DNA of 39,869 nt. Origin: a virus. Every line of letters starts with the position of its first letter. Position 1 is the stretch's first letter. The notes under the pieces are model-generated. The model saw only the letters and a program-made list of their open reading frames with translations. It searched no databases and was not told the origin of the DNA. Positions 1-39,869 of this stretch are shown here, piece after piece. The position numbers were made by a program, and so were the translations under genes. The stretch covers positions 1 to 39,869 of the IMG/VR virus record IMGVR_UViG_3300005613_000167; one strand, given 5' to 3'.

Positions 1-395
1 AAGGCACCGTCCGCCTTCACGGTGGCGGCCTCAGCGGGCCCGATGGCCAGAACGGCGGCCCCGATGTCCGCAATGTAGTACACCGTCGACGGGGCGACAT
101 CGGCCAGCGTGAGGACCGAACGCGCGTACTCGGGCAGCGTCATGCCCTTGCGAGTGTGGTTCCCCAATTGGGCACACTCCGCCAGCGCCTCCCCAGCCTT
201 CCGCAGGGCCTTCCCGGCGGACACGGCCAGAGTGACCATGTTCCGCTCGGCGGCTTGCTGGGCAGGGCTGAGGCTCAGGTTCTCGGCGGCCTTCGGCGCG
301 GTGGCCTTCGGCGCGTCCTTCCGCTTGGCCTTCGGCATGGCCGGGGCAGCGTCAACAGCGGCGATCAAGGAAGCGACATTCTTGCGAATCGACAT
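1..395 (-). CDS. Lys/Ala-rich putative DNA-binding protein, N-terminal part (runs off the window)
   Basis: The ATG at 395 follows GGAG with 9 nt spacing and opens a frame that stays open to base 1 (131 codons, strong G/C in third positions). The protein begins MSIRKNVASL, has a Lys/Ala/Pro-rich stretch at residues 19 to 36 (AKRKDAPKATAPKAA), then a predicted helical region with a possible helix-turn-helix around LADVAPSTVYYI. The basic Ala/Lys/Pro tail resembles histone H1-like bacterial and phage proteins, so nucleic-acid binding is an inference only. It has its own sigma70-like promoter (465..493) and a terminator directly upstream (515..540), so it looks like a separate transcription unit. 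Its continuation is probably the fragment at 39579..39869 if the genome is circular, although the direct joint is out of frame by one base. Confidence 0.7.
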   Translation of the reverse strand, partial: MSIRKNVASLIAAVDAAPAMPKAKRKDAPKATAPKAAENLSLSPAQQAAERNMVTLAVSAGKALRKAGEALAECAQLGNHTRKGMTLPEYARSVLTLADVAPSTVYYIADIGAAVLAIGPAEAATVKADGA

Positions 396-549: not shown

Positions 550-565
550 TTCTAGAATTCTAGAA
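550..565. repeat. TTCTAGA inverted repeat, fully palindromic copy
   Basis: TTCTAGAATTCTAGAA has the same 7-bp arms as the early-gene repeats but a central AT instead of AC/GT, which makes the whole 16 bp a palindrome. It has no gene directly behind it and sits next to a terminator (515..540). Confidence 0.85.
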
Positions 566-28383: not shown

Positions 28384-28399
28384 TTCTAGAGTTCTAGAG
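28384..28399. repeat. TTCTAGA inverted repeat before DNA polymerase
   Basis: TTCTAGAGTTCTAGAG on the plus strand: one arm base differs from the consensus (final G for A). It overlaps the stop codon of the helix-turn-helix gene and ends 12 nt before the polymerase ATG. It is the most distal gene-linked copy of the family. Confidence 0.8.
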
Positions 28400-28732
28400 C
28401 AAGTCGCTCAGAGTTAGGTTGCGACTGGCAAAGTAACGGCGCATCTTAGCAAGCGAGTTCTCAAATATGCGCTTGGCGCGTTCTCCCGTGATCTGATCTT
28501 CGGGGTTTCTGGCGTTGTACTGCCGAGCAATGTTCTCCCATGTGTTGGCCTCGTCTGTCGGCATCTTACCACGAAATCGGGGCGGGCGCGGCTCGTAGCC
28601 AAACCGGGCAATAGACGAAACGCTCTGCGGGCTAATGCCGTACCGTCTGGCAATCTCCACCTTCTTGATGGATGTCTTTGCCAAAGCCTGAACTTCTTTG
28701 ACCTGTTCGTCTGTAAGTTTTCTCTTACGCAT
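28394..28732 (-). CDS. Helix-turn-helix DNA-binding protein
   Basis: 112 residues, basic. Residues about 8 to 38 (VKEVQALAKTSIKKVEIARR then YGISPQSVSSI) form a classical helix-turn-helix of the resolvase/Trp-repressor-like type. The rest is Arg-rich and helical (RAKRIFENSLAKMRRYF). It could be a regulator that acts on phage operators; the TTCTAGA repeat that overlaps its own stop codon is one candidate target. HNH-linked HTH families are an alternative origin, but no HNH motif is present. Confidence 0.7.
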   Translation of the reverse strand: MRKRKLTDEQVKEVQALAKTSIKKVEIARRYGISPQSVSSIARFGYEPRPPRFRGKMPTDEANTWENIARQYNARNPEDQITGERAKRIFENSLAKMRRYFASRNLTLSDLL

Positions 28733-28904
28733 CTTTGATCCTGTCTAGACGATTGATCGCCCGCTGTAATCTGTCCATGGCCCGCACGAATTCCTGTCGC
28801 CGTTCAACAGACTTTCTTGCTTGAACAGAACGCCAAGTATCCGCCACTTCTCGGGAGGACTCAAGAATGCCAAGCACAACCCGCTTCATTGATCTAGTGA
28901 TCAT
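28725..28904 (-). CDS. Small basic helical protein
   Basis: 59 residues from the ATG at 28904, which overlaps the ThyX stop as ATGA. Sequence MITRSMKRVVLGILESSREV continues as an Arg-rich helix (ERRQEFVRAMDRLQRAINRL). Both start and end overlap neighbouring genes, so it is translationally coupled. Possible nucleic-acid binding from its charge only; no family recognised. Confidence 0.6.
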   Translation of the reverse strand: MITRSMKRVVLGILESSREVADTWRSVQARKSVERRQEFVRAMDRLQRAINRLDRIKDA

Positions 28905-29548
28905 CTTTCTAGATCCGTCATGGTGAGGGCCTGCCAAGAAACTGGAAACTTATTGAAGCAGTTCATGTCAATCTTGTGGGCCACTTCTTGAGTTTCCTTC
29001 TGGGCTTCTGGAGCAAGACGCTGAGTGACGACTCGGTGGAAGGCATAAAGAGAACCAGTCCAGATCCACTCGGTCATCATGCCTTGAGGAAGAACAGCCC
29101 TAGCCTGCTCCGGGCAAACACCGTCACGCAGCAACTGCTGGTAGGTTCGCAAAGCAACCCCGACCGCGTAGTTGAAATCGATGATTGAACGCTCGTTTTC
29201 AACACAAGAATCGGAACTGCCCTGCTTTACATTTTCCGCAGCCTGCCGTAAAGAATCTGGTCGCCAAGCCTCTGGCTCTACTGAAACATAACGGCGACTT
29301 ACCTCGTTCCACGCCAGTCCAACTTGATGCTTTGCCAACTGACGAGCAACAAAGATCGGGGCTTTGATGCGGAACGACAGACAGGTGTGGGCAAACGGAG
29401 ACCAATGCTTGTGCTTCGCCAAGTAGTTGATCAACTTTTTGTTTGCTTCTGGCGAGTAATTAGAGGCTGCCTTGTCGAAAGACACGCGGGCAGCGTTCAC
29501 TACCGAGTCGTCGGTCCCCATCCAATCCAACAAAAAAACTTCACTCAT
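28901..29548 (-). CDS. thyX: Flavin-dependent thymidylate synthase
   Basis: 215 residues. It fits ThyX: SPFAHTCLSFRIKAPIFVARQL, then the region of the family's RHRx7S motif, here KHQVGLAWNEVSRRY (about residues 73 to 87), and the ending QVLPQGMMTEWIWTGSL-type block (residues 153 to 167). It converts dUMP to dTMP using FAD and folate, supporting phage DNA synthesis. The first Arg of the motif is replaced by Lys, as in several phage ThyX proteins. It lies between primase-helicase and polymerase, overlapping the genes on both sides. Confidence 0.92.
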   Translation of the reverse strand: MSEVFLLDWMGTDDSVVNAARVSFDKAASNYSPEANKKLINYLAKHKHWSPFAHTCLSFRIKAPIFVARQLAKHQVGLAWNEVSRRYVSVEPEAWRPDSLRQAAENVKQGSSDSCVENERSIIDFNYAVGVALRTYQQLLRDGVCPEQARAVLPQGMMTEWIWTGSLYAFHRVVTQRLAPEAQKETQEVAHKIDMNCFNKFPVSWQALTMTDLER

Positions 29549-29853
29549 CGCGCCTCCTTGAAGCAGTCCCAGCCGCGCTCAGCGGCTTCCATGCGAGGTG
29601 TCTTATCGTCGCGAGGTGAAAGCATTGCTTCCGCGACGCACACCTCCCGCCTCGCCTCGTCGCGCTCATGGATCGCAAGTGACAGCCGTTCCGTAAGCGC
29701 ACCAGCCTCATTCCCGTGCGATTCATGCGATGCGGTCAGTTCCTCGCGGAGGCGTTCGATCTCGTCGGCGGCCTCGCGGTTCATCAGTTCCACGCTGCGG
29801 TCGTTGTGAAGCACGGCGCGGAGCCGGGTCACGATGTCGTGGTCAGATTTCAT
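29545..29853 (-). CDS. Ea22-like small phage protein
   Basis: 102 residues from the ATG at 29853, which overlaps the end of the helicase gene. It begins MKSDHDIVTRLRAVLHNDRS and has the EAADEIERLREEL block that marks the Ea22-like family, followed by coiled coil. Members are accessory proteins with unknown function, often near replication genes. A longer start at 29907 would lie within the helicase gene. Confidence 0.7.
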   Translation of the reverse strand: MKSDHDIVTRLRAVLHNDRSVELMNREAADEIERLREELTASHESHGNEAGALTERLSLAIHERDEARREVCVAEAMLSPRDDKTPRMEAAERGWDCFKEAR

Positions 29854-31432
29854 CGTTGGTCTCCATTTCAATTTCGTGCAAGCGTCCGGTTTCCTTGTGG
29901 TATCCAAGCATTCCAGCGATGCCCGTGTCTCCGGTGAAACGGTTCTTCAACACACGCAGCACCAACTCATTTGGGTTTTCGCCCTGCTGATTGCGCTCCA
30001 AGCCAATGACTGCATCAGCCAATTGGGCAATGGAGTGAGAGCCGCGCAACTGGGCAAGAGAGGTGGAGGCACCTTCTTCGTGGCCGCGGTCCCCATCCGG
30101 TCTTCGGAGATGGCTAACAACGAACATGGCCGCCTGTGTCTCCTCAACAAGAGAACGCAGAGAAGTCATGGCGTTGTCGATCAGTCGCCGCTCGTCGCCA
30201 TCACCAAGACCAGACACCACGATGCTCAGGTGGTCTAGAAAGATGTACTCGCAGCCGCACGACTTGATCATGTACCGGGTTCGGGCAAGCAAGTTCTCTG
30301 GATCGACTGATCCGAAGTGGTCGAAAAGTACAACCTTCGCAACGGTCGCATCGAACGCCTCTCGCTTCTGGTCGCTGCTGATGCCACGATCTGCCCAAAA
30401 GTAAGGGGGTGCGTTGAGGTGGATACCCATGAGATTTCTGCCAGTTCGCTTGACAGATTCTTCAAGCATGAGCAGTCCGACCTTCTTGCCGGATCGAATG
30501 AGATGGCAGACCATCTCCCGGCATACCGAAGACTTGCCGATGCCCGTGCCCGATGTGAGCACCACAAGTTCACCCTTACGGATGCCAAGCAACTTTTCGT
30601 TAAGGGCCGTCCAAGGGTAGGGTGTGGAATCGTTGGGATCGTCTTCGTTGACGGTATCCCAAAGATCACCTCCAAGTACCACGCCATCCGGCCTGTAAGC
30701 CTTCGCACCATAGACAGCATCGATGACTCGCTTTCCTTCTCCGGCAGTATGGGCCTCGTTGGCATCCTTGTGCCCGGGGATCGTGGCAATCTTGGCCTTG
30801 CCGGGAGTCAGGAGCATGGCACACTCCTTGGCCGCAGCACGACCGGGCTCGTCGTCATCAAACATGATCACGACCGTATCGAACTTTTCCAGCCATTCCA
30901 GATTGTTCTGGAAAGACTTGAGGGCTCCGGCAGCACCTGAAGGAACAGACACAACAGGCCACTTGTTCCCAAACAGTTGGCTGACGGTCAGCGCATCAAT
31001 CTCGCCTTCGGTCACGGTGACCATGCGCCCACCGTCACGCCACAAGTGCTGGCCGTAGAAGGGCGCACCCTTGAACTCGCCAAGGGTCACGAAGTCCTTG
31101 GAGGCAAAGCGCAACTTCTGGGCAACGACCTCGCCGTCACGAATGTACTGAGCAACTTGGACGGGCTGGCCGTTGAATTCCCCAAGACCGTAGCCCCAGA
31201 AGCGACAGGTGTCCTCTGAGATGTCCCGCTTCTTCAGGGGACCGTATTCGATGGGAATCAAATCTGTCCGTTTAAGAAGGACAGACGGCAAAGGCTCTCC
31301 GGTACCAGTTTCGTAGTACTTGCAGCCGAAGCAGTAACCGTGTCCATCCGTGTAACGGGCCAGATTGTCCTTGCTGCCGCAACTCGGGCAAGGCTCATGC
31401 TGGACGAACTCCGACTCTTTGTGGTTGTTCAT
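29843..31432 (-). CDS. DNA primase-helicase (T7 gp4-like)
   Basis: 529 residues from the ATG at 31432 (GGAG, 8-nt spacing). A four-Cys zinc finger (C15, C18, C34, C37) reads the template, then a Toprim primase (TEGEID 141 to 146; MFDDDEPGR 190 to 198), and a RecA-type helicase with Walker A TSGTGIGKS (293 to 301), Walker B YIFLDH and the C-terminal RVLKNRFTGDTG arginine-finger region. It unwinds the fork and makes primers for the polymerase. The T7 gp4 length is 566. It overlaps the RusA gene by 38 bp. Confidence 0.96.
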   Translation of the reverse strand: MNNHKESEFVQHEPCPSCGSKDNLARYTDGHGYCFGCKYYETGTGEPLPSVLLKRTDLIPIEYGPLKKRDISEDTCRFWGYGLGEFNGQPVQVAQYIRDGEVVAQKLRFASKDFVTLGEFKGAPFYGQHLWRDGGRMVTVTEGEIDALTVSQLFGNKWPVVSVPSGAAGALKSFQNNLEWLEKFDTVVIMFDDDEPGRAAAKECAMLLTPGKAKIATIPGHKDANEAHTAGEGKRVIDAVYGAKAYRPDGVVLGGDLWDTVNEDDPNDSTPYPWTALNEKLLGIRKGELVVLTSGTGIGKSSVCREMVCHLIRSGKKVGLLMLEESVKRTGRNLMGIHLNAPPYFWADRGISSDQKREAFDATVAKVVLFDHFGSVDPENLLARTRYMIKSCGCEYIFLDHLSIVVSGLGDGDERRLIDNAMTSLRSLVEETQAAMFVVSHLRRPDGDRGHEEGASTSLAQLRGSHSIAQLADAVIGLERNQQGENPNELVLRVLKNRFTGDTGIAGMLGYHKETGRLHEIEMETNDEI

Positions 31433-31799
31433 AGTTCTCGCTCCACTCAATCTCAATTCGTGGCTCAGTACTGTAGCACTTCTCCGCTACCAGCCACATG
31501 ATTTGTGAGTCGTCGTGCCACGCCCATCCATTGAGCGAATCCAAGATCGACTTCACATGATTATCGATGTCGCCCACGGGCCAGAAATTCGCTGGCTTCT
31601 TAGGCGACTTACAAAAGAAACAAACCTTTACCATCAGCGGCCCACCGAGAGGGCAGCCCTTGGGCTTCTTTATAGCGTCAAGGGCTGCCCTTGCTTCTCG
31701 GCGGAACTTCTCATAGGTCTTGCCATAGTACGCGAACCCTCGGCGCGAGATTCTCGGCCTAGATGCGGGTACTGGGTCAACCTTGAGAACGATCTTCAT
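31395..31799 (-). CDS. RusA-family Holliday-junction resolvase
   Basis: 134 residues. The motif GDIDNHVKSILDSLNG (about residues 76 to 91) holds the two Asp of RusA-type resolvases, with DDSQIMWL after it; the N-terminus VDPVPASRPRIS is also typical. It would cut branched replication intermediates before packaging. In T7 this job is done by the unrelated endonuclease I (gp3) at the same place in the map, so this is a non-homologous replacement. The ATG overlaps the SSB stop as ATGA. Confidence 0.85.
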   Translation of the reverse strand: MKIVLKVDPVPASRPRISRRGFAYYGKTYEKFRREARAALDAIKKPKGCPLGGPLMVKVCFFCKSPKKPANFWPVGDIDNHVKSILDSLNGWAWHDDSQIMWLVAEKCYSTEPRIEIEWSENYEQPQRVGVRPA

Positions 31800-32407
31800 C
31801 AGAAGTCGTTGTCGTCGCCGCCTGAAGAGTCCTCGGTCGCAGCCTGAGCCACGAAGCCCTTGGGGTCAGCCGTGAACCCGTAGGCATCGAAGCGGTCACC
31901 GGGGGTGTACTCCTTGAGGTCAAGGATCTGCACGGCCTTCATCCGCAGGGAAACGCCTGCGCCGACCATGGCCGTGAAGAACGGAACAACCTCAAAGGAC
32001 ACCTTGATCTCGCTGCCCGATCCGACATTGGGCGGAGCCTGAATGGCAACTCCCATGGAGTCGAACAGCATGGGCTTCTGGGTCCACGACTTCTCGTCGT
32101 TACCCGCCTTGGCCTTCAACTTGAACTTGATGCGGATCCGGCCCTCATCGGTCTCCTTGATGGGGAGGTCGGCCCGCTTCAACTTCTTGTTGCCGCGCTT
32201 CTCGCACTCGGCCTTGTACGCAGCATCCGCCGCCTGCTTCAGGGAGGAGATGAACGCCGCTGCATCCTTGCTCTCGGGGTTCAACTCCAGATCCACGCTG
32301 TACACGCCGTCCTTGTCGAACTTGGTGTCTGGCGTGGTGAGCCGGGGGTAAATGGCCGTGCCCCGGGGACTCGTCAGGCGAACGAACTTGTTCTTTGCCG
32401 CACTCAT
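31799..32407 (-). CDS. Single-stranded DNA-binding protein (T7 gp2.5-like)
   Basis: 202 residues from the ATG at 32407, preceded by GGAG with 8-nt spacing; a start at 32464 would lie upstream of the inverted repeat and inside the RNA polymerase gene. Sequence MSAAKNKFVRLTSPRGTAIY and the VSFEVVPFFTAM block fit the gp2.5/DUF2815 group. The acidic C-terminus (SSGGDDNDF) ends in Phe, as in T7 gp2.5, where it contacts the polymerase and helicase. A TTCTAGA inverted repeat is 15 nt upstream. Confidence 0.93.
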   Translation of the reverse strand: MSAAKNKFVRLTSPRGTAIYPRLTTPDTKFDKDGVYSVDLELNPESKDAAAFISSLKQAADAAYKAECEKRGNKKLKRADLPIKETDEGRIRIKFKLKAKAGNDEKSWTQKPMLFDSMGVAIQAPPNVGSGSEIKVSFEVVPFFTAMVGAGVSLRMKAVQILDLKEYTPGDRFDAYGFTADPKGFVAQAATEDSSGGDDNDF

Positions 32408-32422
32408 GTGGTGTCTCCTTCT

Positions 32423-32438
32423 TTCTAGAGTTCTAGAA
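32423..32438. repeat. TTCTAGA inverted repeat before SSB
   Basis: Perfect TTCTAGAGTTCTAGAA (plus strand). It abuts the RNA polymerase stop codon at 32439 and ends 15 nt before the SSB start codon. Confidence 0.9.
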
Positions 32439-34832
32439 TCAGTTGAAGTAGTAGTCTGATTCACGAACCTTGGTGATGTCCAGAGAACCGTACTCTGGAA
32501 CTTCAGGTATGGTACCAGAACTTCCCAGATAGGTCAAGGCCCCCTCACGGAACTCCCTGAGAAGATCCCGCGAGAAGATGTCAACCGTGGCCTCACGGAC
32601 GCAGGAAGACACCTTCATGTAGTCTCCAGACAGGCACAGGATCTGGTCGTGGACGGAGCCAAGATGGTTCACCCCGTTGGCCGCACACATATTCACGGTG
32701 TGTCCCAACAGCCCACCAAAGCCGTCTAGCGAGTGAATGTAGTTGGCTGGGCCCCCGTTCATAGCCTTGCGCTTGGACTGAACACCGTTCTCTTGTCGAA
32801 TCGACAGCACCTTGGCCTTGGCCCCGATGCGGGTAGACACGGTGACTAGGTCGTAATTCTCGTACCGCATTCGCACCGGGAAACCCAGAGGAGTCATCCA
32901 CATCGGCGTGACATCGTTGTCAATCAGGGTGGAAACGCATTGACGAATAAACGCCATACCACGCTGGGCTGACCCGACGACATCACCGATTGATTCCCAG
33001 ATCGTCTTGCCCAACAGGGCGACTGGCGCATACATCTCCAGACCAAACGGATTGTGGCCGTGCTTGCGGATGCGGTCTTCAAGCCACTCCCGGGTATAGC
33101 CAATACAAGAGTGCAGGGTCAGACCGTAAGGCAGCGTCATGGTTTGCCGCTTGGTCGTGCTGCGATCAACGCCCAAAGCCAACAACTGCTTGGCTAGGGG
33201 ATCAGACGAACTGGCTAGTTTGTTGGTCACCTTGTTGGCAACAAACTGGTACGGATCAGAGGGGGCAGCAGCGGGTAGGACATTTGTCGCCGTGGCTGCC
33301 ACCGGATCTCGCAGCAACATGGAATAAATCTGAAGACCCTGAGTAGTGGCATCCATGGCAATCGGCAGGCTGCTGACAAACCCAGATCCATGCTTCCACA
33401 GTCCAGCCAGTTCACGACACGCGGCCACAAAAGCAAAAGGCTCGTCCGCCTCCGTCCACATCCGATTCGACCACGGGTCAACAGCAATCTGCTGAATTGC
33501 CTTCCTGTTTTCCTCAACCCACTTCAACCGCACAGCCATCGGCTGCTTGTCCATTCCAAACTTGTTGGCAACTTGGATGTACAGCGGGAACTGGTCCGCA
33601 TCAGTCTTCAGAACTTTGCCGTCTGCGAACCGCAGCAAAGCCTTTGCATACGACGAACCCTGCGGATTCAAGAACAACGGCAGCGGGTATCCCCGGCCAC
33701 GGAAATCCAACTGATGGGGGAACCACAGCCTGCTGTGCCCAGCCATCTTGTCGGCCACAAACAGGGTCTTCAGGATCAGCAGACGCTGCGACTCAAAGGA
33801 CTCATTTAAGAAATGAATCTTTGCGGCAGCCTTGCGCCAACTGCGGCGGGCTTCGTCGTTGTCGTCGATATCTTGAGGCTTGGTTGGAAGAGGCTCGTCT
33901 TTGCTTGGAGGAAGACCATCGATGGTCAGGCCCTCTTTCCAACACTCTTTGACCAACTCCAGCGACTGGCGGTCAATCGACCACGGCGTATTCTGGACAA
34001 AGTTAACGGCCTTGTAGACCGCCGGGGGTAGAGAGGTGGCTAGCGACTCCTGATACGCCTTGGATCGGCTCTTGACCAACGGACGAGGCTTCCACTCAAG
34101 AGAGCCATAGCCGCCAACCCAAGGATTGTTCCACTCCAGCGGCTTCTCCACCATGGGGAGGAACATCGGCTCAAGAGATTCGTGGTATTCGTGACATTCT
34201 TTGATCCACTTGCGAATATCCGCAGATGGCTGAATCACGCAATATTTGCGGCCCCGGGCATTCAACTTGGTGACGATCTGAATGATCTGGGTGCGCTCGG
34301 CCAGCATTTCTACCAGCAGCAACCCAACAGCAAGAGCGTCAGCCTTGGCCCACCGCTTAGTGACAAGATCAACGGCCTTGGCGGCATCACGGGCAAATCG
34401 ACGCTTGACCTTCTGCCCCACCTTCTTGAATGTCTTCTTCTGAATCGTGCGAAGAAACTCGGGCTGAGTGTCCGCCAACTCGTTCAAAAGAATTTCATCT
34501 TCGACTGCACGGCCCACAGCGATGCAAGTTCCAGTCAACATTCGTTCGGTTGACAGGGCATCGATGACCACCTTGGCCGCGATGACAGCGATTTTTTCGT
34601 GTGATAGTGAATTGACAAACGCGAGGCACCGATGACGACGACCGGGACCAGACGAGGACTTTGCAATCCAAAGTTCCAGCCCCTTGGCAAGTTCGGTCGT
34701 GCAGCGATTGAGCAGCATCCGACCGGGAACGGTGTTGCTTTCCGCTCCCAGTTCGTGGGCCTTGGCCTTTCGGTTGGCGTACCGCTGCCTCCCGAGTTCC
34801 ACCATCTCCTGATCTAGTTTGCTTTGTCGCAT
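32439..34832 (-). CDS. Single-subunit DNA-dependent RNA polymerase (T7 gp1-like)
   Basis: 797 residues (T7 has 883). Landmarks: DFRGRGYPLP (376 to 385) matches T7 DWRGRVY; catalytic D494 in PIAMDATTQGLQ; K561 R562 and Y569 G570 in TTKRQTMTLPYG (T7 K631 and Y639); IHSLDG (699 to 704); and H728 D729 in SVHDQI (T7 H811 D812). The C-terminus DYYFN resembles the essential FAFA foot. It transcribes the middle and late genes. The first ATG follows the inverted repeat with no Shine-Dalgarno; AGGAG lies just before residue Met10, so the true start is uncertain. Confidence 0.96.
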   Translation of the reverse strand: MRQSKLDQEMVELGRQRYANRKAKAHELGAESNTVPGRMLLNRCTTELAKGLELWIAKSSSGPGRRHRCLAFVNSLSHEKIAVIAAKVVIDALSTERMLTGTCIAVGRAVEDEILLNELADTQPEFLRTIQKKTFKKVGQKVKRRFARDAAKAVDLVTKRWAKADALAVGLLLVEMLAERTQIIQIVTKLNARGRKYCVIQPSADIRKWIKECHEYHESLEPMFLPMVEKPLEWNNPWVGGYGSLEWKPRPLVKSRSKAYQESLATSLPPAVYKAVNFVQNTPWSIDRQSLELVKECWKEGLTIDGLPPSKDEPLPTKPQDIDDNDEARRSWRKAAAKIHFLNESFESQRLLILKTLFVADKMAGHSRLWFPHQLDFRGRGYPLPLFLNPQGSSYAKALLRFADGKVLKTDADQFPLYIQVANKFGMDKQPMAVRLKWVEENRKAIQQIAVDPWSNRMWTEADEPFAFVAACRELAGLWKHGSGFVSSLPIAMDATTQGLQIYSMLLRDPVAATATNVLPAAAPSDPYQFVANKVTNKLASSSDPLAKQLLALGVDRSTTKRQTMTLPYGLTLHSCIGYTREWLEDRIRKHGHNPFGLEMYAPVALLGKTIWESIGDVVGSAQRGMAFIRQCVSTLIDNDVTPMWMTPLGFPVRMRYENYDLVTVSTRIGAKAKVLSIRQENGVQSKRKAMNGGPANYIHSLDGFGGLLGHTVNMCAANGVNHLGSVHDQILCLSGDYMKVSSCVREATVDIFSRDLLREFREGALTYLGSSGTIPEVPEYGSLDITKVRESDYYFN
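32509..32537 (-). promoter_or_regulatory. Possible sigma70-like promoter inside the end of the RNA polymerase gene
   Basis: TTGACC (532..537), 17 nt, then TACCAT (509..514), with the TTCTGG just before the -10 that the early promoters also carry. It is within coding sequence, so selection for protein could explain it, but it would drive SSB and the replication genes. Confidence 0.35.
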
Positions 34833-34833
34833 T

Positions 34834-34849
34834 TTCTAGAACTCTAGAA
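34834..34849. repeat. TTCTAGA inverted repeat abutting the RNA polymerase start, opposite orientation
   Basis: On the plus strand this copy reads TTCTAGAACTCTAGAA, so its centre is AC where all the other gene-linked copies have GT. Only 1 nt separates it from the RNA polymerase ATG, leaving no room for a Shine-Dalgarno sequence. A TATCAT (34853..34858, minus) just upstream could place a transcription start in or near the repeat. Confidence 0.85.
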
Positions 34850-34879
34850 TGAATGATACGGCACCAAACCGTAGGAAAT

Positions 34880-34913
34880 AAAAAACCCCCTGTATCCATT
34901 TGGATACAAGGGG
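34880..34913 (-). terminator. Early-block terminator just upstream of the RNA polymerase gene
   Basis: On the minus strand CCCCTTGTATCC pairs with GGATACAGGGG (4-nt loop, one bulged base) and six T follow. It closes the early block, 45 bp after the stop at 34958 and about 47 nt before the RNA polymerase ATG. The rest of the gap 34850..34957 has no gene. Confidence 0.88.
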
Positions 34914-34957
34914 CGAGAGAGGAGAACGCCGGGGAGAACTCGGCGTTGTCCACTATA

Positions 34958-35677
34958 TCACGCGATTGCGTAGTACTGGCGCAGAGCCTTGTCAAACGAC
35001 AGAATGCGCTGCGGACGCTCCACGGGGTTCATCTCCTTGGCAAGGTGCGTGTAGGCGGCCTGAAGGTTCCAGAGGCACAGCCGGGAGGTCTGGTAGTCGA
35101 AGGACGGGGTGATGGACTCCTCGTAGAAGTCGGTCGCCTTGGACTTGGGCAGGATTCCATGACGAGCCAACCGCATTGTGAAGTGCGCCAAAGAGGTTTC
35201 GTCCGTCGAAAAATCCATCAGGATTTCCTCACGCTTGTAGAACTGATTGACCTCGCTCTCAAAGTCACGCACGGCGGCGTTGATCAAGGACGGCAGCCGA
35301 TCCCAAACATGGGTCGTGTGCTTGGTGGACAGCACATGGTCGGAGATCACCAAGCCGTTGGTGCAAGCGAAGACATGGCCGCCGAAGATCAGGCGGTTTG
35401 CCATGGTCTTGTCGTAGGAGTTCATGACTCCCACCGTCCACTTGAGCCGGGGATCCTCTTGGAGGTTCGGGATGCCGATGTCCATGGTGCTGATGAACAG
35501 CGGACGCTTACGGTGAACCTGATGAGACTCGCTCTTGACGATGTACCCGGCCTTTTCAAAGGTGTCGGCTACAGTACGGACCAAGGTGTGCTGCGGAACC
35601 GGGGTGTAGGTGTCGGTGGAGGCCGGAACCGGGATCTTGGTGAGGTCAGCCAGAGTGCGGTAAGTGTTACGAGCCAT
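34958..35677 (-). CDS. DUF932-like phage protein
   Basis: 239 residues from the ATG at 35677 (GGAGAA upstream). The pattern TVGVMNSYDKTMANRLIFGG followed by HVFACTNGLVISDHVLSTKHT resembles DUF932-type phage and plasmid proteins of unknown biochemistry. It is soluble, with no catalytic motif recognised. It is the last gene of the early block, with an inverted repeat before it and a terminator after it. Family assignment is moderate; function unknown. Confidence 0.75.
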   Translation of the reverse strand: MARNTYRTLADLTKIPVPASTDTYTPVPQHTLVRTVADTFEKAGYIVKSESHQVHRKRPLFISTMDIGIPNLQEDPRLKWTVGVMNSYDKTMANRLIFGGHVFACTNGLVISDHVLSTKHTTHVWDRLPSLINAAVRDFESEVNQFYKREEILMDFSTDETSLAHFTMRLARHGILPKSKATDFYEESITPSFDYQTSRLCLWNLQAAYTHLAKEMNPVERPQRILSFDKALRQYYAIA

Positions 35678-35689
35678 TGTGAGTTCTCC

Positions 35690-35705
35690 TTCTAGAGTTC
35701 TAGAA
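35690..35705. repeat. TTCTAGA inverted repeat before the DUF932-like gene
   Basis: Perfect TTCTAGAGTTCTAGAA. It abuts the stop codon at 35706 and ends 12 nt before the ATG at 35677. Confidence 0.9.
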
Positions 35706-35909
35706 TTACTGAGCCCTACGCTTGGGCTTGGCCTTGAGGCACGAATCAATGAACAGGGTTTCGGCTTCCGTAAGCCACGACTTGTGACGATCTACGCGCC
35801 ACAGTACCAATGACGCAAAGTTAAAGGCGTTTTCGTGATCGCCAGACAGGTGGTACTGGTATGTCTGGTCGATGCCGTTAGAGATGAGGAAACGATCCGC
35901 TTTCTCCAT
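35706..35909 (-). CDS. Hypothetical early protein, possibly leaderless
   Basis: 67 residues, MEKADRFLISNGIDQTYQYH, ending in a basic KAKPKRRAQ. No family recognised. The -10 box of the nearest promoter (35916..35921) places transcription start about at the A of this ATG, so the mRNA would have no leader. No internal Met offers an alternative start. It is the only early gene with no inverted repeat in front. Confidence 0.65.
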   Translation of the reverse strand: MEKADRFLISNGIDQTYQYHLSGDHENAFNFASLVLWRVDRHKSWLTEAETLFIDSCLKAKPKRRAQ

Positions 35910-35915
35910 GTCCGT

Positions 35916-35943
35916 ATGTTACCAGAGATTACGAATCTGTCAA
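35916..35943 (-). promoter_or_regulatory. Early sigma70 promoter 4, extended -10
   Basis: TTGACA (35938..35943), 16-nt spacer ending TCTCTGG, then TAACAT (35916..35921). The TGG before the -10 gives an extended -10. It overlaps the end of the upstream coding sequence (stop at 35929) and would serve the genes at 35909 and 35677. Confidence 0.8.
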
Positions 35944-36180
35944 TGGGGACACCTCAATGTGGCCTGCGCGAGACATCTGCTCGTCAGTCCACACGGACAG
36001 TTGGTAGACCTTGCCTTCCGGCGTGGCGAACATCAAGCAAGTCAGGTATTCGCCCGCGTTGTCGTTGTCTTCTGCGATGCCAATGCCGATGACTTGGGCA
36101 CCACGAAGCATACGAACGCTGTTAAACGCCCTAGTTGCGCCGGGAGGTGTTTGCTCGTTAGGAAGTTCTCCAACCCACAT
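35929..36180 (-). CDS. Hypothetical early protein
   Basis: 83 residues, MWVGELPNEQTPPGATRAFN..., with beta-rich centre (GEYLTCLMFATPEGKVYQLS). No domain recognised. GGAG with an inverted repeat 10 nt upstream of the ATG. Its last codons encode part of promoter 4. Confidence 0.65.
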   Translation of the reverse strand: MWVGELPNEQTPPGATRAFNSVRMLRGAQVIGIGIAEDNDNAGEYLTCLMFATPEGKVYQLSVWTDEQMSRAGHIEVSPLTDS

Positions 36181-36190
36181 AACGGTCTCC

Positions 36191-36206
36191 TTCTAGAGTT
36201 CTAGAA
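36191..36206. repeat. TTCTAGA inverted repeat before the gene at 36180
   Basis: Perfect TTCTAGAGTTCTAGAA, 10 nt upstream of the ATG. It is separated from the previous stop (36266) by about 60 bp, unlike the copies that touch a stop codon. Confidence 0.9.
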
Positions 36207-36265
36207 CAAGTAAAGCGCGTGATTGGGTAAGCCACGGTATACGCGCCCCACCGTGGGATTGGAGT

Positions 36266-36745
36266 TTAGGCGCGGGCCAAGTGATCCGTGATCACCCGGC
36301 AGAGACTGACCATGAACGCATCCCGCAGTTCGGGGTCCTGCTTAAAGGAACGCACAATGGATGCAGCGATCTTGTCGTGGTCGATGCACTCGCTCCAGTC
36401 GATGCCCGCATTGTCAAGGTGCTGGGCCACATCCGCCGCGTCGATGTTGTCCGAAACAATCCGGGCAATCTCATCCATATCGACATTCTCTGCAATGTCC
36501 CGGTCGCTGATGTTCTGGGCGACCTCCGAAGCGACCTCGGAGACATCCATTCTGTCTGCGATGTCGCTAGCGTCAAACTCTGCGGCAAGATCCGAAACAT
36601 CCATGCAAGAGGCGATTTCGCGGTAGTCGTCTGCGGTGAGCAGCGGCTTGGCCGGAGCAAACAAGTCCCCAACCTTGAGTTCTCCGATGATCTGAGTCTT
36701 GATGCCGTCGATAAGGCTCGGCGGAAGGGTGACGACGATGTCCAT
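36266..36745 (-). CDS. Acidic protein with degenerate DxSDIA repeats
   Basis: 159 residues with 34 Asp/Glu against 13 Lys/Arg (net about -21). Between residues 48 and 120, short acidic units recur (MDVSDLA, FDASDIA, MDVSEVA, SDRDIA, VDMDEIA, IDAADVA), spaced mostly 9 or 13 residues. The ends are ordinary (VVTLPPSLIDGIKTQIIGE; SLCRVITDHLARA). CAAGGAGAACACA precedes the ATG. A charged, early, repetitive protein could be a DNA mimic or protein binder, which is speculative. No catalytic motif seen. Confidence 0.8.
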   Translation of the reverse strand: MDIVVTLPPSLIDGIKTQIIGELKVGDLFAPAKPLLTADDYREIASCMDVSDLAAEFDASDIADRMDVSEVASEVAQNISDRDIAENVDMDEIARIVSDNIDAADVAQHLDNAGIDWSECIDHDKIAASIVRSFKQDPELRDAFMVSLCRVITDHLARA

Positions 36746-36758
36746 TGTGTTCTCCTTG

Positions 36759-36774
36759 TTCTAGAGTTCTAGAA
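36759..36774. repeat. TTCTAGA inverted repeat before the acidic protein gene
   Basis: Perfect TTCTAGAGTTCTAGAA, 13 nt before the ATG at 36745 and downstream of promoter 3, so within the mRNA leader. Confidence 0.9.
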
Positions 36775-36816
36775 CTGTTCTCTTGCTGTGTGAAGGAACG
36801 CCCCTCACACTTCAGT

Positions 36817-36844
36817 ATCCTACCACAGAATTCGATTGTGTCAA
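36817..36844 (-). promoter_or_regulatory. Early sigma70 promoter 3, extended -10
   Basis: TTGACA (36839..36844), 16-nt spacer ending TCTGTGG, TAGGAT (36817..36822). It lies just after the stop at 36850 and drives the acidic-protein gene; the inverted repeat at 36759..36774 lies in its transcript. Confidence 0.8.
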
Positions 36845-36849
36845 TGCCC

Positions 36850-37308
36850 TCACAGGTTGACATCAATCCGGGCGGCGATCTCCTCAAACGACAGGTCAAG
36901 TTTGTCGTTAGCGGCGGTGAGCGAACGATTGAACCGGGTGATTTCGGTTCCCGCAATCTCTTCCACCTCCTTAAGGGCCTCGTCGTCATCCAGAATGTCT
37001 GGATCAACGCAGGAAAGCCCCGCCCAATCCACGACTTCTTGAGGCGGGAAGAAAGAGGAGTTCAGCCACGCCGAGCCGTCACGATAACGGAATGAGAGGT
37101 CGCCCCACTCGTTTCGGGAAACCCAAGATCCCCGCCCAGTTTCTTTGATATACAGTTCACACAGGACACCCAAAGCGCAATGGCAGGCGGAGTTATCCAT
37201 CGTCGCCTCGGTCTTCAACATACCATTTCCCTTGGTGTATTCACCTCCACGAAGTGCGGCAACCCACAGGGACTTGATCTCGGCCTTCATTCGATGTGCA
37301 ATCTTCAT
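36850..37308 (-). CDS. Conserved hypothetical early phage protein (CALGVLCEL family)
   Basis: 152 residues. The sequence SLWVAALRGGEYTKGNGML, then CHCALGVLCELYIKETG and VVDWAGL matches a widespread, unnamed family of phage and plasmid proteins with the same ALRSGxYxQGxGxL...CCLGVLC arrangement. Function unknown. AGAGAG precedes the ATG, and the leader also contains a two-codon ATGCCATGA mini-frame that overlaps the start. Confidence 0.8.
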   Translation of the reverse strand: MKIAHRMKAEIKSLWVAALRGGEYTKGNGMLKTEATMDNSACHCALGVLCELYIKETGRGSWVSRNEWGDLSFRYRDGSAWLNSSFFPPQEVVDWAGLSCVDPDILDDDEALKEVEEIAGTEITRFNRSLTAANDKLDLSFEEIAARIDVNL

Positions 37309-37324
37309 GGCATTCTCTCTTTCT

Positions 37325-37340
37325 TTCTAGAGTTCTAGAA
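37325..37340. repeat. TTCTAGA inverted repeat, extended leader copy 1
   Basis: Perfect TTCTAGAGTTCTAGAA. It abuts the GP88 stop codon (37341) and is followed on the minus strand by the shared leader AGAAAGAGAGAATGCC, 16 nt, and the ATG at 37308. Confidence 0.9.
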
Positions 37341-38132
37341 TCAACCAGCGTGAACGACGAAAGGTGAGGGCTTGATGTTGCCCTTGGCCCGCAGGCCGAC
37401 GATAACACCACCGACAGGGTCCTTGAACCGGACATCGGACAGGTCGCCATCGATGACGGCCCAGCCTTCGTGCTTGTTGGGCAGGGCGCGGTCTCGCTTG
37501 GTGTTGAACACCATGGCGACATTGCCTCCGGCATTGAGGTACTGGCGGCACTCGTCCCAGTTGTGACCGGAGTACGACAGCGTCAGGTGAACAGGGCTGT
37601 GCCTGTTGAGGGAGTGGAGGGCTCGGGTGAATGACTTGGTGTAGTCGTAGTTCAACGACCCCCAAGCGTAGACTTCTGGAGCCACCTTCTCCCATGGGAT
37701 GTCGGATAGGACATTGGAGCGGAAAGCCCAGTTGCCTTGACCGTACTTGCGGTTGGCCGCAGCCAGTTCGTCGTACAGGTGGCGAAAGAACAGGATGGGC
37801 TGTTCCATCAGGAAACGGGTCTTGTTGATCCGTGCCTGCTGAACATTGGAGAACCGGGATCGGCCAGCGGTAACCCCAAGGCAAGCGGCCTCGCATTCTG
37901 GGGACCGCCAAGGGCACAACTGGTAGCCAGACATCCCGGCAGGGGCAAGGGTCAGGCCGAAGATCGGCATGGAGCCCTTGGACAACTTGGTGTTGGCCCC
38001 GGGAGGAGTCAGCAGGGCGCGAGATCGTTCATATACGACCTTTTCTTGCCGCTCATTGAGAGCATGAATGGCGGCACGGCTGACAACAGACCAACGAGGA
38101 GACAGGGCAGAGTTGTTCAGGACTTCCAACAT
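37341..38132 (-). CDS. GP88-family protein
   Basis: 263 residues. The block GSMPIFGLTLAPAG then QLCPWRSPECEAACLG and AGRSRF, with the following KTRFLMEQP, fits the phage GP88 family. Its three Cys (CPWRSPECEAAC) suggest a metal or iron-sulphur site. Function is not known; it is the largest early gene. The leader is AGAAAGAGAGAACGCC before the ATG. Confidence 0.8.
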   Translation of the reverse strand: MLEVLNNSALSPRWSVVSRAAIHALNERQEKVVYERSRALLTPPGANTKLSKGSMPIFGLTLAPAGMSGYQLCPWRSPECEAACLGVTAGRSRFSNVQQARINKTRFLMEQPILFFRHLYDELAAANRKYGQGNWAFRSNVLSDIPWEKVAPEVYAWGSLNYDYTKSFTRALHSLNRHSPVHLTLSYSGHNWDECRQYLNAGGNVAMVFNTKRDRALPNKHEGWAVIDGDLSDVRFKDPVGGVIVGLRAKGNIKPSPFVVHAG

Positions 38133-38148
38133 GGCGTTCTCTCTTTCT

Positions 38149-38164
38149 TTCTAGAGTTCTAGAA
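38149..38164. repeat. TTCTAGA inverted repeat, extended leader copy 2
   Basis: Perfect TTCTAGAGTTCTAGAA, 16 nt before the GP88 ATG and downstream of promoter 2, so within its leader. Confidence 0.9.
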
Positions 38165-38202
38165 CGAGGTGGTGAAGAGTGGTCGATCACTCAACACCAC
38201 AG

Positions 38203-38230
38203 ATGTTACCAGAGAAACAGAACTTGTCAA
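38203..38230 (-). promoter_or_regulatory. Early sigma70 promoter 2, extended -10
   Basis: TTGACA (38225..38230), 16-nt spacer ending TCTCTGG, TAACAT (38203..38208). The TGA stop of the upstream gene (38227..38229) is inside the -35 box. It drives the GP88 gene. Confidence 0.82.
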
Positions 38231-38649
38231 CTGGGCAACGGATCTCCCGCCTTGGCGGCCAGTCGAACAGCATCGACACACGCCTTGAAGGAGTTCTCGC
38301 TGATGGTGCCGTTCTCTTTGGCAAGCAGCAGGACATGGGTGATCAGCCCAGAGCAGATCCACATATCCCGGAGGGCTTGGGCCTCTTGCGGGCTCTTGAT
38401 CTTGAGACCAGCGGCCTCCGCAAGGATCTGGGCCACTTGCACCGGGGAGCAATGGGGATGGCTCTGCCCATGGCCGAGAACAGCGGAGGTGACTGACGAG
38501 TTCACCAGAACCTCTACGGTCTGCCCCACTTCGGCAGCAGCCTCCACTCCCCAAGCCATCCTGACCGAGGTCTGGTCATCGAAGATGAAGTTGAACGAGT
38601 AGGGGTTCATGAGGAACTTGCGAGGAGTCGGAACGGAAGAAGCGTACAT
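38227..38649 (-). CDS. Hypothetical early protein
   Basis: 140 residues from the ATG at 38649; the in-frame ATG at 38655 has GAGAG only 1 nt away, whereas 38649 has the 7-nt spacing of the two sister leaders. The first part (NPYSFNFIFDDQTSVRMAWG) is beta-like; the rest is helical (VAQILAEAAGLKIKSPQEAQ). No family recognised. Confidence 0.7.
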   Translation of the reverse strand: MYASSVPTPRKFLMNPYSFNFIFDDQTSVRMAWGVEAAAEVGQTVEVLVNSSVTSAVLGHGQSHPHCSPVQVAQILAEAAGLKIKSPQEAQALRDMWICSGLITHVLLLAKENGTISENSFKACVDAVRLAAKAGDPLPS

Positions 38650-38666
38650 TGGCATTCTCTCTTTCT

Positions 38667-38682
38667 TTCTAGAGTTCTAGAA
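38667..38682. repeat. TTCTAGA inverted repeat, extended leader copy 3
   Basis: Perfect TTCTAGAGTTCTAGAA. It abuts the stop codon at 38683 and is followed by the AGAAAGAGAGAATGCC leader shared with copies at 37325 and (one base different) 38149. Confidence 0.9.
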
Positions 38683-38958
38683 TCAGATGACCACATGGAC
38701 ATTCAGGTAGTCGGCCTTGAACTGGCCCAGAACCTTGGCGATGGCGTTACGGACCCCGGTGGCGGAGCGTTCCTCAATCACGGCAGCAGCCAAGCCGATG
38801 CCCAGAAGACGAACGAAGTCCAAGGACATCGATTCAAGGTGGGCCTTGGCCGGATCCGACAGAGTCTCAACCCAGTCCCGAATCTGGGACGACTCAAGGA
38901 CATACCCGTCATCTTGCAGCAGGTCGCAGAAGCGGTGCAAACGCTGGATGTTGTTCAT
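38683..38958 (-). CDS. Hypothetical first early protein
   Basis: 91 residues, MNNIQRLHRFCDLLQDDGYV, helical, no motif. First gene behind promoter 1, so it should be among the earliest expressed. Host takeover or defence inhibition is a common role for such first genes, but nothing in the sequence proves it. GGGAGAA precedes the ATG. Confidence 0.7.
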   Translation of the reverse strand: MNNIQRLHRFCDLLQDDGYVLESSQIRDWVETLSDPAKAHLESMSLDFVRLLGIGLAAAVIEERSATGVRNAIAKVLGQFKADYLNVHVVI

Positions 38959-38971
38959 CGGTGTTCTCCCA

Positions 38972-38987
38972 ATCTAGAGTTCTAGAA
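38972..38987. repeat. TTCTAGA inverted repeat, one mismatch, before the first early gene
   Basis: ATCTAGAGTTCTAGAA on the plus strand (first base differs from consensus). It lies 13 nt before the ATG at 38958 and downstream of promoter 1. Confidence 0.85.
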
Positions 38988-39029
38988 TCAGTCCCAGCCG
39001 CCTTGGCCGGATCCCTGACTCACAACAGT

Positions 39030-39057
39030 AGGTTACCACAGATTCCGTTCTTGTCAA
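39030..39057 (-). promoter_or_regulatory. Early sigma70 promoter 1, extended -10
   Basis: TTGACA (39052..39057), 16-nt spacer ending TCTGTGG, TAACCT (39030..39035). The first promoter of the early block, 72 nt before the ATG at 38958. Confidence 0.8.
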
Positions 39058-39094
39058 TGCCCCTACAGAAAGAACAGAAGTCGTCTACGCTTTG

Positions 39095-39217
39095 GTGTAC
39101 TGTAGTATACCTAAAGGTTCCTCTAAGTATTTATACCTAAGTAGTCTTTCTTCTATACCTGTATTAGATACTTATATAAGGAATCTAGGGTAGAGACTCT
39201 AGTAGAAACTATAGTAA
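39095..39217. other. AT-rich, CTAG-dense non-coding block
   Basis: No gene in 39058..39524. This part is far richer in A/T than the rest of the window, with repeated TATACCTAA-type words and CTAG-containing words (CTAGGG, CTAGTAG). On the minus strand TACTATAG (39209..39216) resembles the T7 promoter core. A replication origin or an easily melted early control region are both possible. Confidence 0.5.
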
Positions 39218-39233
39218 ATCTAGAGTTCTAGAA
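39218..39233. repeat. TTCTAGA inverted repeat in the non-coding control region, one mismatch
   Basis: ATCTAGAGTTCTAGAA on the plus strand, between the AT-rich block and the 31-bp repeats; no gene begins near it. Confidence 0.85.
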
Positions 39234-39243
39234 AAGACACACA

Positions 39244-39282
39244 CGACTAGCGTCCCAGCGGGATAGTGAATGTGATAGTGAA
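39244..39282 (-). repeat. 31-bp direct repeat, copy 2, with a doubled TTCACTAT core
   Basis: 39244..39274 matches 39359..39389 at 28 of 31 positions. On the minus strand it contains TTCACTATCCCGCTGGGACG, and a second TTCACTATCAC at 39272..39282. The core resembles CTCACTATAGGG of the T7 promoter, so these are candidate phage RNA polymerase promoters. Confidence 0.6.
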
Positions 39283-39358
39283 GTCTGGTTTGGTAGGTCT
39301 TTTGAAGGTGATGATCGGGGATGAAGTCTGGATTCTGTTCTAGACTCAACGACATGGA

Positions 39359-39389
39359 CGACCAGCGTCCCAGCGTGATAGTGAATATG
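39359..39389 (-). repeat. 31-bp direct repeat, copy 1
   Basis: On the minus strand TTCACTATCACGCTGGGACG. It is 85 bp from copy 2, in the same orientation. Promoter-like, as described for copy 2. Confidence 0.6.
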
Positions 39390-39442
39390 GCCGGTTTTGG
39401 GTGGGGTTTTGGATGGGTCTGGCGGTCCCGGGCGAATGTCGG

Positions 39443-39460
39443 CGTGTCCGGGATAGTGAA
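39443..39460 (-). repeat. Partial TTCACTATCCCG repeat
   Basis: The minus strand reads TTCACTATCCCGGACACG, sharing the core with the 31-bp repeats but not their outer part. Confidence 0.5.
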
Positions 39461-39479
39461 CCCGCGCCCCGCGAATCGA

Positions 39480-39495
39480 TTCTAGAGTTCTAGAA
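39480..39495. repeat. TTCTAGA inverted repeat beside the terminator
   Basis: Perfect TTCTAGAGTTCTAGAA between the control region and the terminator at 39525..39560; a TATGCATAACGC word like the left-end iterons follows at 39502. Confidence 0.9.
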
Positions 39496-39578: not shown

Positions 39579-39869
39579 TTACGCTACCTTCGCGGCCTTC
39601 GCGGCGACACGCTTAACGCGGTCCATGGCCGCCTGCAGCAAGCCCAGCACGGCGGCATCCGATGCGGCCTTGCCTCCGGCGTACTTCCGGGCTTTGTTGG
39701 CAAGGGCAGCGGCGGCCTTCGCCGGGTCCATGACGCCCAACATGGTCTCACCACCGTTCCGAACCTTGCGCACCGCGTCAATGGTTACCTTCCCTTCGCC
39801 AGCCTTGAGGGCCGCAGCGTAGACCGTCCGCATGGCCTCAGCGTCCCCACGGCCAGCGGAAGCGATCTC
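39579..39869 (-). CDS. Lys/Ala-rich putative DNA-binding protein, C-terminal part (enters from the window edge)
   Basis: 96 codons plus stop, open to the right edge in the frame beginning GAG ATC GCT. The sequence is Ala/Lys-rich (VTIDAVRKVRNGG; AAAALANKARKYAGGKAASD; MDRVKRVAAKAAKVA at the end), as expected for a histone-like or DNA-condensing tail. It is followed by a strong terminator. It is probably the C-terminal half of the gene that starts at 395, giving a protein of about 228 residues, if the ends join. A separate gene cannot be excluded. Confidence 0.75.
   Translation of the reverse strand, partial: EIASAGRGDAEAMRTVYAAALKAGEGKVTIDAVRKVRNGGETMLGVMDPAKAAAALANKARKYAGGKAASDAAVLGLLQAAMDRVKRVAAKAAKVA

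Follow-up and report, generated by a model that had tools for sequence, protein, structure and literature searches.

Why should a T7-like phage set the same short inverted repeat in front of ten of its genes? The question is raised by IMG/VR virus record IMGVR_UViG_3300005613_000167, all 39,869 nucleotides of which are referred to here as the window. A first-pass annotation, made from the letters alone, had reported thirteen copies of a 16-bp repeat, TTCTAGA-AC-TCTAGAA. All thirteen were found at the reported positions and far above chance: the two strands hold 28 matches at up to three mismatches, against 0.20 expected (maximum 2 in 100 shuffles), two of the 28 (14599 and 26240) being stray and single-strand only. 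The observation is real, conserved and unusual. The explanation that serves best overall, and that we consider probable, is a stoperator-like array of operators with a co-evolving regulator, for which the candidate is the product of the first early gene, here called R.

The site array in the window and its relatives

The window is a T7-like phage, with a T7-type RNA polymerase (RNAP), a Gp2.5-like single-stranded DNA-binding protein (SSB), a primase-helicase, a DNA polymerase, a head-tail connector, a tail tubular protein and a terminase. The genes next to its sites all lie on the minus strand. As had been claimed, ten copies precede start codons (those of the DNA polymerase, SSB, RNAP, DUF932 protein, GP88 protein and five small early or replication genes), four abut a stop codon and three lie behind early promoters, about 40 bp downstream of the −10 boxes. 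The rarity of CTAG was also borne out, with 80 occurrences in the window against 151 expected. The copies are as follows; the sigma70-like promoters were read by eye.

550..565, minus strand, site TTCTAGA-AT-TCTAGAA, upstream of the split gene R
28384..28399, minus strand, site before the DNA polymerase gene; its TAG is the stop codon of a helix-turn-helix (HTH) gene, which it overlaps
32423..32438, minus strand, site between the RNAP stop and the SSB start, abutting the stop
34834..34849, minus strand, site immediately preceding the RNAP ATG and following a terminator; centre reversed (AGTT)
35690..35705, minus strand, site before the DUF932 gene, abutting a stop
36191..36206, minus strand, site before gene 35929..36180
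36759..36774, minus strand, site before gene 36266..36745, downstream of a sigma70-like promoter at about 36814..36844
37325..37340, minus strand, site before gene 36850..37308, abutting a stop
38149..38164, minus strand, site before the GP88-family gene, downstream of a sigma70-like promoter at about 38203..38230
38667..38682, minus strand, site before gene 38227..38650, abutting a stop
38972..38987, minus strand, site before gene 38683..38958, downstream of a sigma70-like promoter at about 39030..39057
39218..39233, minus strand, site with a run of phage-promoter-like TTCACTATC words on one side and the first early host-type promoter on the other; no adjoining gene start
39480..39495, minus strand, site after the terminator of the split gene R

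Window genes that overlap their upstream neighbour have no site before them, and in the structural region the only site is the copy at 550, which goes with the split gene at the left end. The small gene 35706..35909 (minus strand) also lacks a repeat; its ATG follows a TAACAT −10 box by about 6 nt (TTGACA at about 35943), and its mRNA is probably leaderless.

Relatives were gathered by a primase search that gave 67 loci, nearly all with a CTAG-CTAG family of their own (labels in L and G denote loci and contigs). Across them the inverted repeat holds, whereas the 16-mer does not survive as the unit: outer bases and centre differ between phages, as in GTCTAG-ACT-CTAGAC, TCTAG-GATC-CTAGA, TTCTAG-TCA-CTAGAA, GTCTAG-GGT-CTAGAC, GTCTAG-GAA-CTAGAC and others, and what is conserved is TCTAG-N3/4-CTAGA. 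Perfect copies of this unit number 210, spread over 58 loci of a single T7-like clade, with a spacer of 3 bp in 150 and 4 bp in 60; perfect arms 5 bp apart were found three times and arms 0–2 bp apart never, and control arms gave no such peak. The sites with a spacer of 5 in L035 and L063 (TCTAG-GACTC-CTAGA) have arms one base pair longer.

The position of the sites is equally regular. No fewer than 187 of the 210 perfect copies lie within 60 nt upstream of a start, typically at 11–22 nt and in longer leaders as well; the TAG of the left arm serves as the preceding stop codon in 66, and 43 abut a stop. Near-complete contigs (39–40 kb) carry 6–15 sites in their early and replication part, and several add one before the tail tubular gene; sites are rare before late genes and absent from most structural gene borders. 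In most phages of the clade a site lies just behind an extended −10 promoter (read by eye), at about +1, following the terminator before the RNAP gene. The site before the tail tubular gene (L018:15613, L030:13972, L041:13653, L061:15495, L072:9893, G003:6458) has a GATC centre in most cases, whatever the rest of the array, and its AGGA could act as a Shine-Dalgarno sequence.

Absence of the motif from the same places in close relatives had been named beforehand as an outcome that would count against it; this is not what was found. In L005, whose RNAP is 98% identical, the nine shared sites are unchanged (0 of 144 positions substituted in the repeats), against 114 of 835 other intergenic bases (13.7%; Fisher p = 8e-9) and with 492 of 8483 coding bases substituted. 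Sites are absent from the sister group L056–L059 (RNAP 66% identical) and from the four early regions examined, those of CRP-125, Pasto, HTVC168P and LUZ100. On the primase tree the spacer class switches several times, sometimes between near-identical phages. The orientation of the centre is biased in the window (11:1), G003 (11:0) and L046 (7:0) and mixed in L010, L049, L061, L042 and L100, which leaves the array open to some polarity or copying history.

Half-damaged sites were then sought without presuming which change occurs. Four half-site changes stand out, each mirrored on the other side: CTATA/TATAG, CTGTA/TACAG, CTGCA/TGCAG and TTAGA/TCTAA. These variants occur at spacer 3, and the opposite half is intact except in L015, which has two different variant halves; a symmetrical, compensated pair was never seen among them. 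This is precisely the pattern that a two-fold protein bound to double-stranded DNA produces; with an RNA stem, compensated changes or G-U pairs would be favoured. Judged from these sequence patterns, the repeats are very probably dyad binding sites at the level of DNA.

Gene R and other candidate binders

Gene R is the first early gene, encodes about 200–290 amino acids and is usually flanked by two sites, for which reason it is probably autoregulated. In the window it is split, and the gene named as the binder by the first-pass annotation lies elsewhere:

3..395, minus strand, gene R, N-terminal part, 131 amino acids, with an HTH-like stretch DVAPSTVYYIADIG (read by eye)
39579..39869, minus strand, gene R, C-terminal part, 96 amino acids, cut by the contig end
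39521..39560, minus strand, intrinsic-terminator-like hairpin and T-run after gene R (read by eye)
28394..28732, minus strand, HTH protein, 112 amino acids, the binder proposed earlier; universal in the clade and not specific to site-bearing phages

The window R lies between the sites at 550 and 39480. Its two frames are about one base short of joining, so the split is an assembly end, and the record looks incompletely closed or permuted. Members of the R family were found in L010/L096, L013, L060, L028, L049/L084, L099, L100, L103 and L111–L113 as well as in the window. R is present in every site-bearing phage whose left end is covered. The siteless contig G010 lacks it throughout, as do the early regions of the four named phages without sites. 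Conversely, loci retrieved with R as the sole query all carry sites. There is a site on each side of R in L099, L100, L103 and L111–L113, the upstream copy in L099 being a half-variant. After gene R in L100 three tandem sites overlap (5056–5082; TCTAGAG repeats).

The coupling between R and the site centre is seen in G003 and G004, which share 88.4% nucleotide identity over 36.5 kb. The early sites of G003 all have a TCA centre (11), whereas all sites of G004 have GATC (15). When every gene was compared, R was the least conserved of those with a detectable match, at 35% identity; it is bounded by two sites and followed by a terminator. In L111–L113, whose R is of the G003 type, the centres are TCA or its reverse, TGA, only. 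Where the HTH-like stretch of R reads ST/AT-x-YY, the centre mostly has an inner A (AACT, ACT and AAT, with ACA and mixed centres in L013/L060); the L049 type goes with GGT/ACC, the G003 type with TCA and the G004 type with GATC, all from few independent lineages. R matched no Pfam, PHROG or NCBIfam entry, the best hint being a weak one to Cro for the G003 member (E = 0.12); searching its profile against solved structures gave nothing useful, and R and the HTH family do not align with each other. On this pattern of co-occurrence and joint change, there is a good likelihood that R binds the sites.

It is unlikely, in our estimate, that the array is instead bound by another protein, be it the universal HTH protein, an acidic repeat protein or a host factor. 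The HTH protein is encoded by every member whose region is covered, and its gene ends in a site. However, it is also kept in the siteless sisters, and across the switch of the whole array from TCA to GATC it remains 82% identical with the same recognition-helix letters. It does not track the sites and was rejected as the factor that sets centre specificity; its predicted structure (pLDDT 85) had no significant match in the PDB. The acidic protein (36266..36745, minus strand) consists of helical repeats with ‘IDxSDVAxx’ units, is variable in length and is found only in site-bearing phages, with members in 16 clustered site-bearing loci and none in L057/L058. An isoelectric point of about 4.2, unlike that of a DNA binder, and a low-confidence model led us to discard it as the binder; a DNA mimic or a partner of the array is possible. 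The first-pass annotation had also looked to a motif count in the host genome. One phage of the clade, L077, is a contig in a 2.7 Mb metagenome-assembled genome, Proteobacteria bacterium C1_MAG_00031, a weak hint to a host and the single such assembly available. No host array was seen there, the motif occurring once outside the phage contig against 12 hits for the reversed control, and a host factor was set aside on that count, the host link being itself weak.

Leader RNA and recombination as alternatives

Could the repeat act in the mRNA, setting translation or stability as a small hairpin or cleavage site in the leader, immediately before the Shine-Dalgarno sequence? The tight distance to starts, kept in leaders with no preceding stop, would suit such an element, as would the lack of a site before overlapping genes and before the probably leaderless gene. 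A stem of 5–6 bp is predicted (−3 to −4.7 kcal/mol), and the outer base pair covaries, being Watson-Crick in 99 of 136 cases against 68 expected. Either a DNA or an RNA model allows this covariation, and G-U is not enriched at the same pair (2 seen, 2.4 expected). The core variants, however, break the stem on one side without compensation, and most no longer fold, the TCTAA variant retaining −1.1 kcal/mol. Both centre orientations also occur within one genome. The processing or stability hairpin suggested earlier is therefore disfavoured as the conserved feature, and was rejected as the main explanation; we regard an mRNA element as improbable.

One further class of site bears on the same question. 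A perfect copy lies inside the DNA polymerase gene, far from any start, in L012 (5987), L060 (15044), L028 (12362), L055 (4123) and L077 (10584), in the form GGT CTA GA(C/T) TCT AGA CCG. It uses the rare codons CTA and AGA, whereas in other phages an identical or similar peptide is specified by different codons. The site at the start of the polymerase gene is missing from L028 and L055 and half-damaged in L012 and L060. To judge from these sequences, the internal copy looks like turnover of a binding site.

That the repeats serve as joints for exchange of early cassettes, homogenised by gene conversion, is very improbable: copies do lie at module borders, and arrays are homogeneous within a genome and change in concert between close relatives, but 13–16 bp is short for homologous exchange, most structural gene borders have no site, and the fixed spacer, the mirrored one-sided variants and the rare-codon copy in the polymerase gene behave as binding sites do. 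Recombination may occur as a by-product, but it leaves the one-sided variants and the copy in the polymerase gene unexplained. A translational stop cassette (TAG in two frames) was rejected because spacers of 0, 1 or 6 would serve equally and are absent. Among the options first listed for the repeat, the candidate operator is the one that survives.

Proposed action and known systems

In the operator array that we favour, each site would consist of two CTAGA half-sites on opposite strands around a centre of 3–4 bp, and the protein bound there, most likely R as a dimer or in some other two-fold form, would sit in the leader or intergenic gap of each early or replication unit or gene. Once accumulated, R would block or slow transcription of these genes by the host RNAP, much as cluster A repressors do at stoperators. 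Hindrance of the host enzyme by a protein made early might leave the field to the phage RNAP, and R could thereby set the switch from early to late expression or exclude related phages. We give this roadblock, which is an interpretation of where the sites lie, an even chance of being the mode of action. More tentatively, and with rather less expectation of being right, we suggest that lytic T7-like phages may carry an immunity-type system, in which a fast-diversifying R and genome-wide dyad stoperators switch specificity wholesale between close relatives, shutting off early and replication genes and excluding co-infecting phages of the same specificity without lysogeny.

Several points weigh against the operator array and its roadblock. 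A roadblock would not require sites to be set as precisely as they are, at 11–22 nt before starts and with this distance kept where the leader is longer. L064 and L030 each combine the two spacers, which is uncommon for a rigid dimer; several genomes have GATC at the tail-gene site regardless of the remaining array, and centre orientation is biased in some genomes and mixed in others. The acidic family, like R, is confined to site-bearing phages, and between G003 and G004 a few other small early genes are replaced or absent. The HTH-like stretch of R was read by eye only, R belongs to no known family, and its types and their centres represent few independent lineages. Moreover, an intact site shortly upstream of R is lacking in L010, L028 and L060. 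Finally, no PF00589 integrase was found in the 11 contigs searched, some of them fragments, and a role as a classical lysogeny repressor is for that reason unlikely.

The operator of the Escherichia coli TrpR repressor also has CTAG half-sites, 4 bp apart; here a spacer of 3 is commoner, and no TrpR homologue was identified. The closest parallel is with the stoperators of cluster A mycobacteriophages such as L5 and TipsytheTRex, which are asymmetric, bound to one orientation and read by a monomeric repressor (PMC9283540, PMC6550527). As in those phages, there are many copies on the scale of 13 bp in short intergenic spaces and at promoters, with a consensus proper to each phage; the cluster A consensus changes with the phage-encoded repressor, and here the centre changes with the type of R (TCA in G003 and L111–L113, GATC in G004), albeit in few lineages. 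In contrast to cluster A, the present sites are dyads, of mixed orientation in many genomes, and the hosts, the sequence of the regulator and the life style differ, this being a phage with a T7-like RNAP in which no integrase was found. Because neither the asymmetry and fixed orientation nor the temperate life is found here, the array is not filed as a member of the stoperator system.

The first-pass annotation had pointed to the start-associated sequences (SAS) of cluster K mycobacteriophages, a parallel that holds mainly for position; cluster A stoperators fit better. Both sets of sites are restricted to non-structural genes at starts (with the tail-gene exception in several of our relatives), and the cluster K consensus differs by subcluster. 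The SAS are GGGATAGGAGCCC-like and asymmetric, contain AGGAG, overlap the Shine-Dalgarno sequence and lie 3–7 bp from the start, whereas the present sites have a different sequence and typical distance. The extended SAS (ESAS) are inverted repeats with arms of 17 bp and spacers mostly of 4–13 bp, and the function of both kinds is open (PMC3203893, PMC12699233); the authors judged the inverted repeats likelier to be DNA–protein sites, as departures from them do not support RNA pairing (PMC3203893). The sites described here are related in sequence to neither SAS nor ESAS.

T7-like phages are thought to time expression by a swap of RNAP, not by repressor arrays. We could not find, in the open-licence literature, a description of such repeats or of an operator array of this kind in them. 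If the proposal is true, this large group would have, in the array and its co-evolving, undescribed regulator, a second layer of control. Pairs such as G003 and G004, alike over most of the genome and opposite in site centre and R type, would be natural experiments on joint changes of specificity in a regulator and its dozen or more sites. The comparable arrangement in an unrelated group would also bear on the function of the cluster K repeats.

Two observations concern the phage at large. No near relative was found among named phage records by megablast; the window RNAP is about 35% identical to its nearest matches, those of Pelagibacter phages, and the primase about 52% identical to those of Roseobacter and Rhizobium phages. 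The RNAP gene is:

32439..34832, minus strand, T7-type RNA polymerase

Between the sites at 39480 and 39218 lie four TTCACTATC words (39248..39466, minus strand), which are likely to be promoters of the phage RNAP; a single further copy of the word lies inside the RNAP gene.

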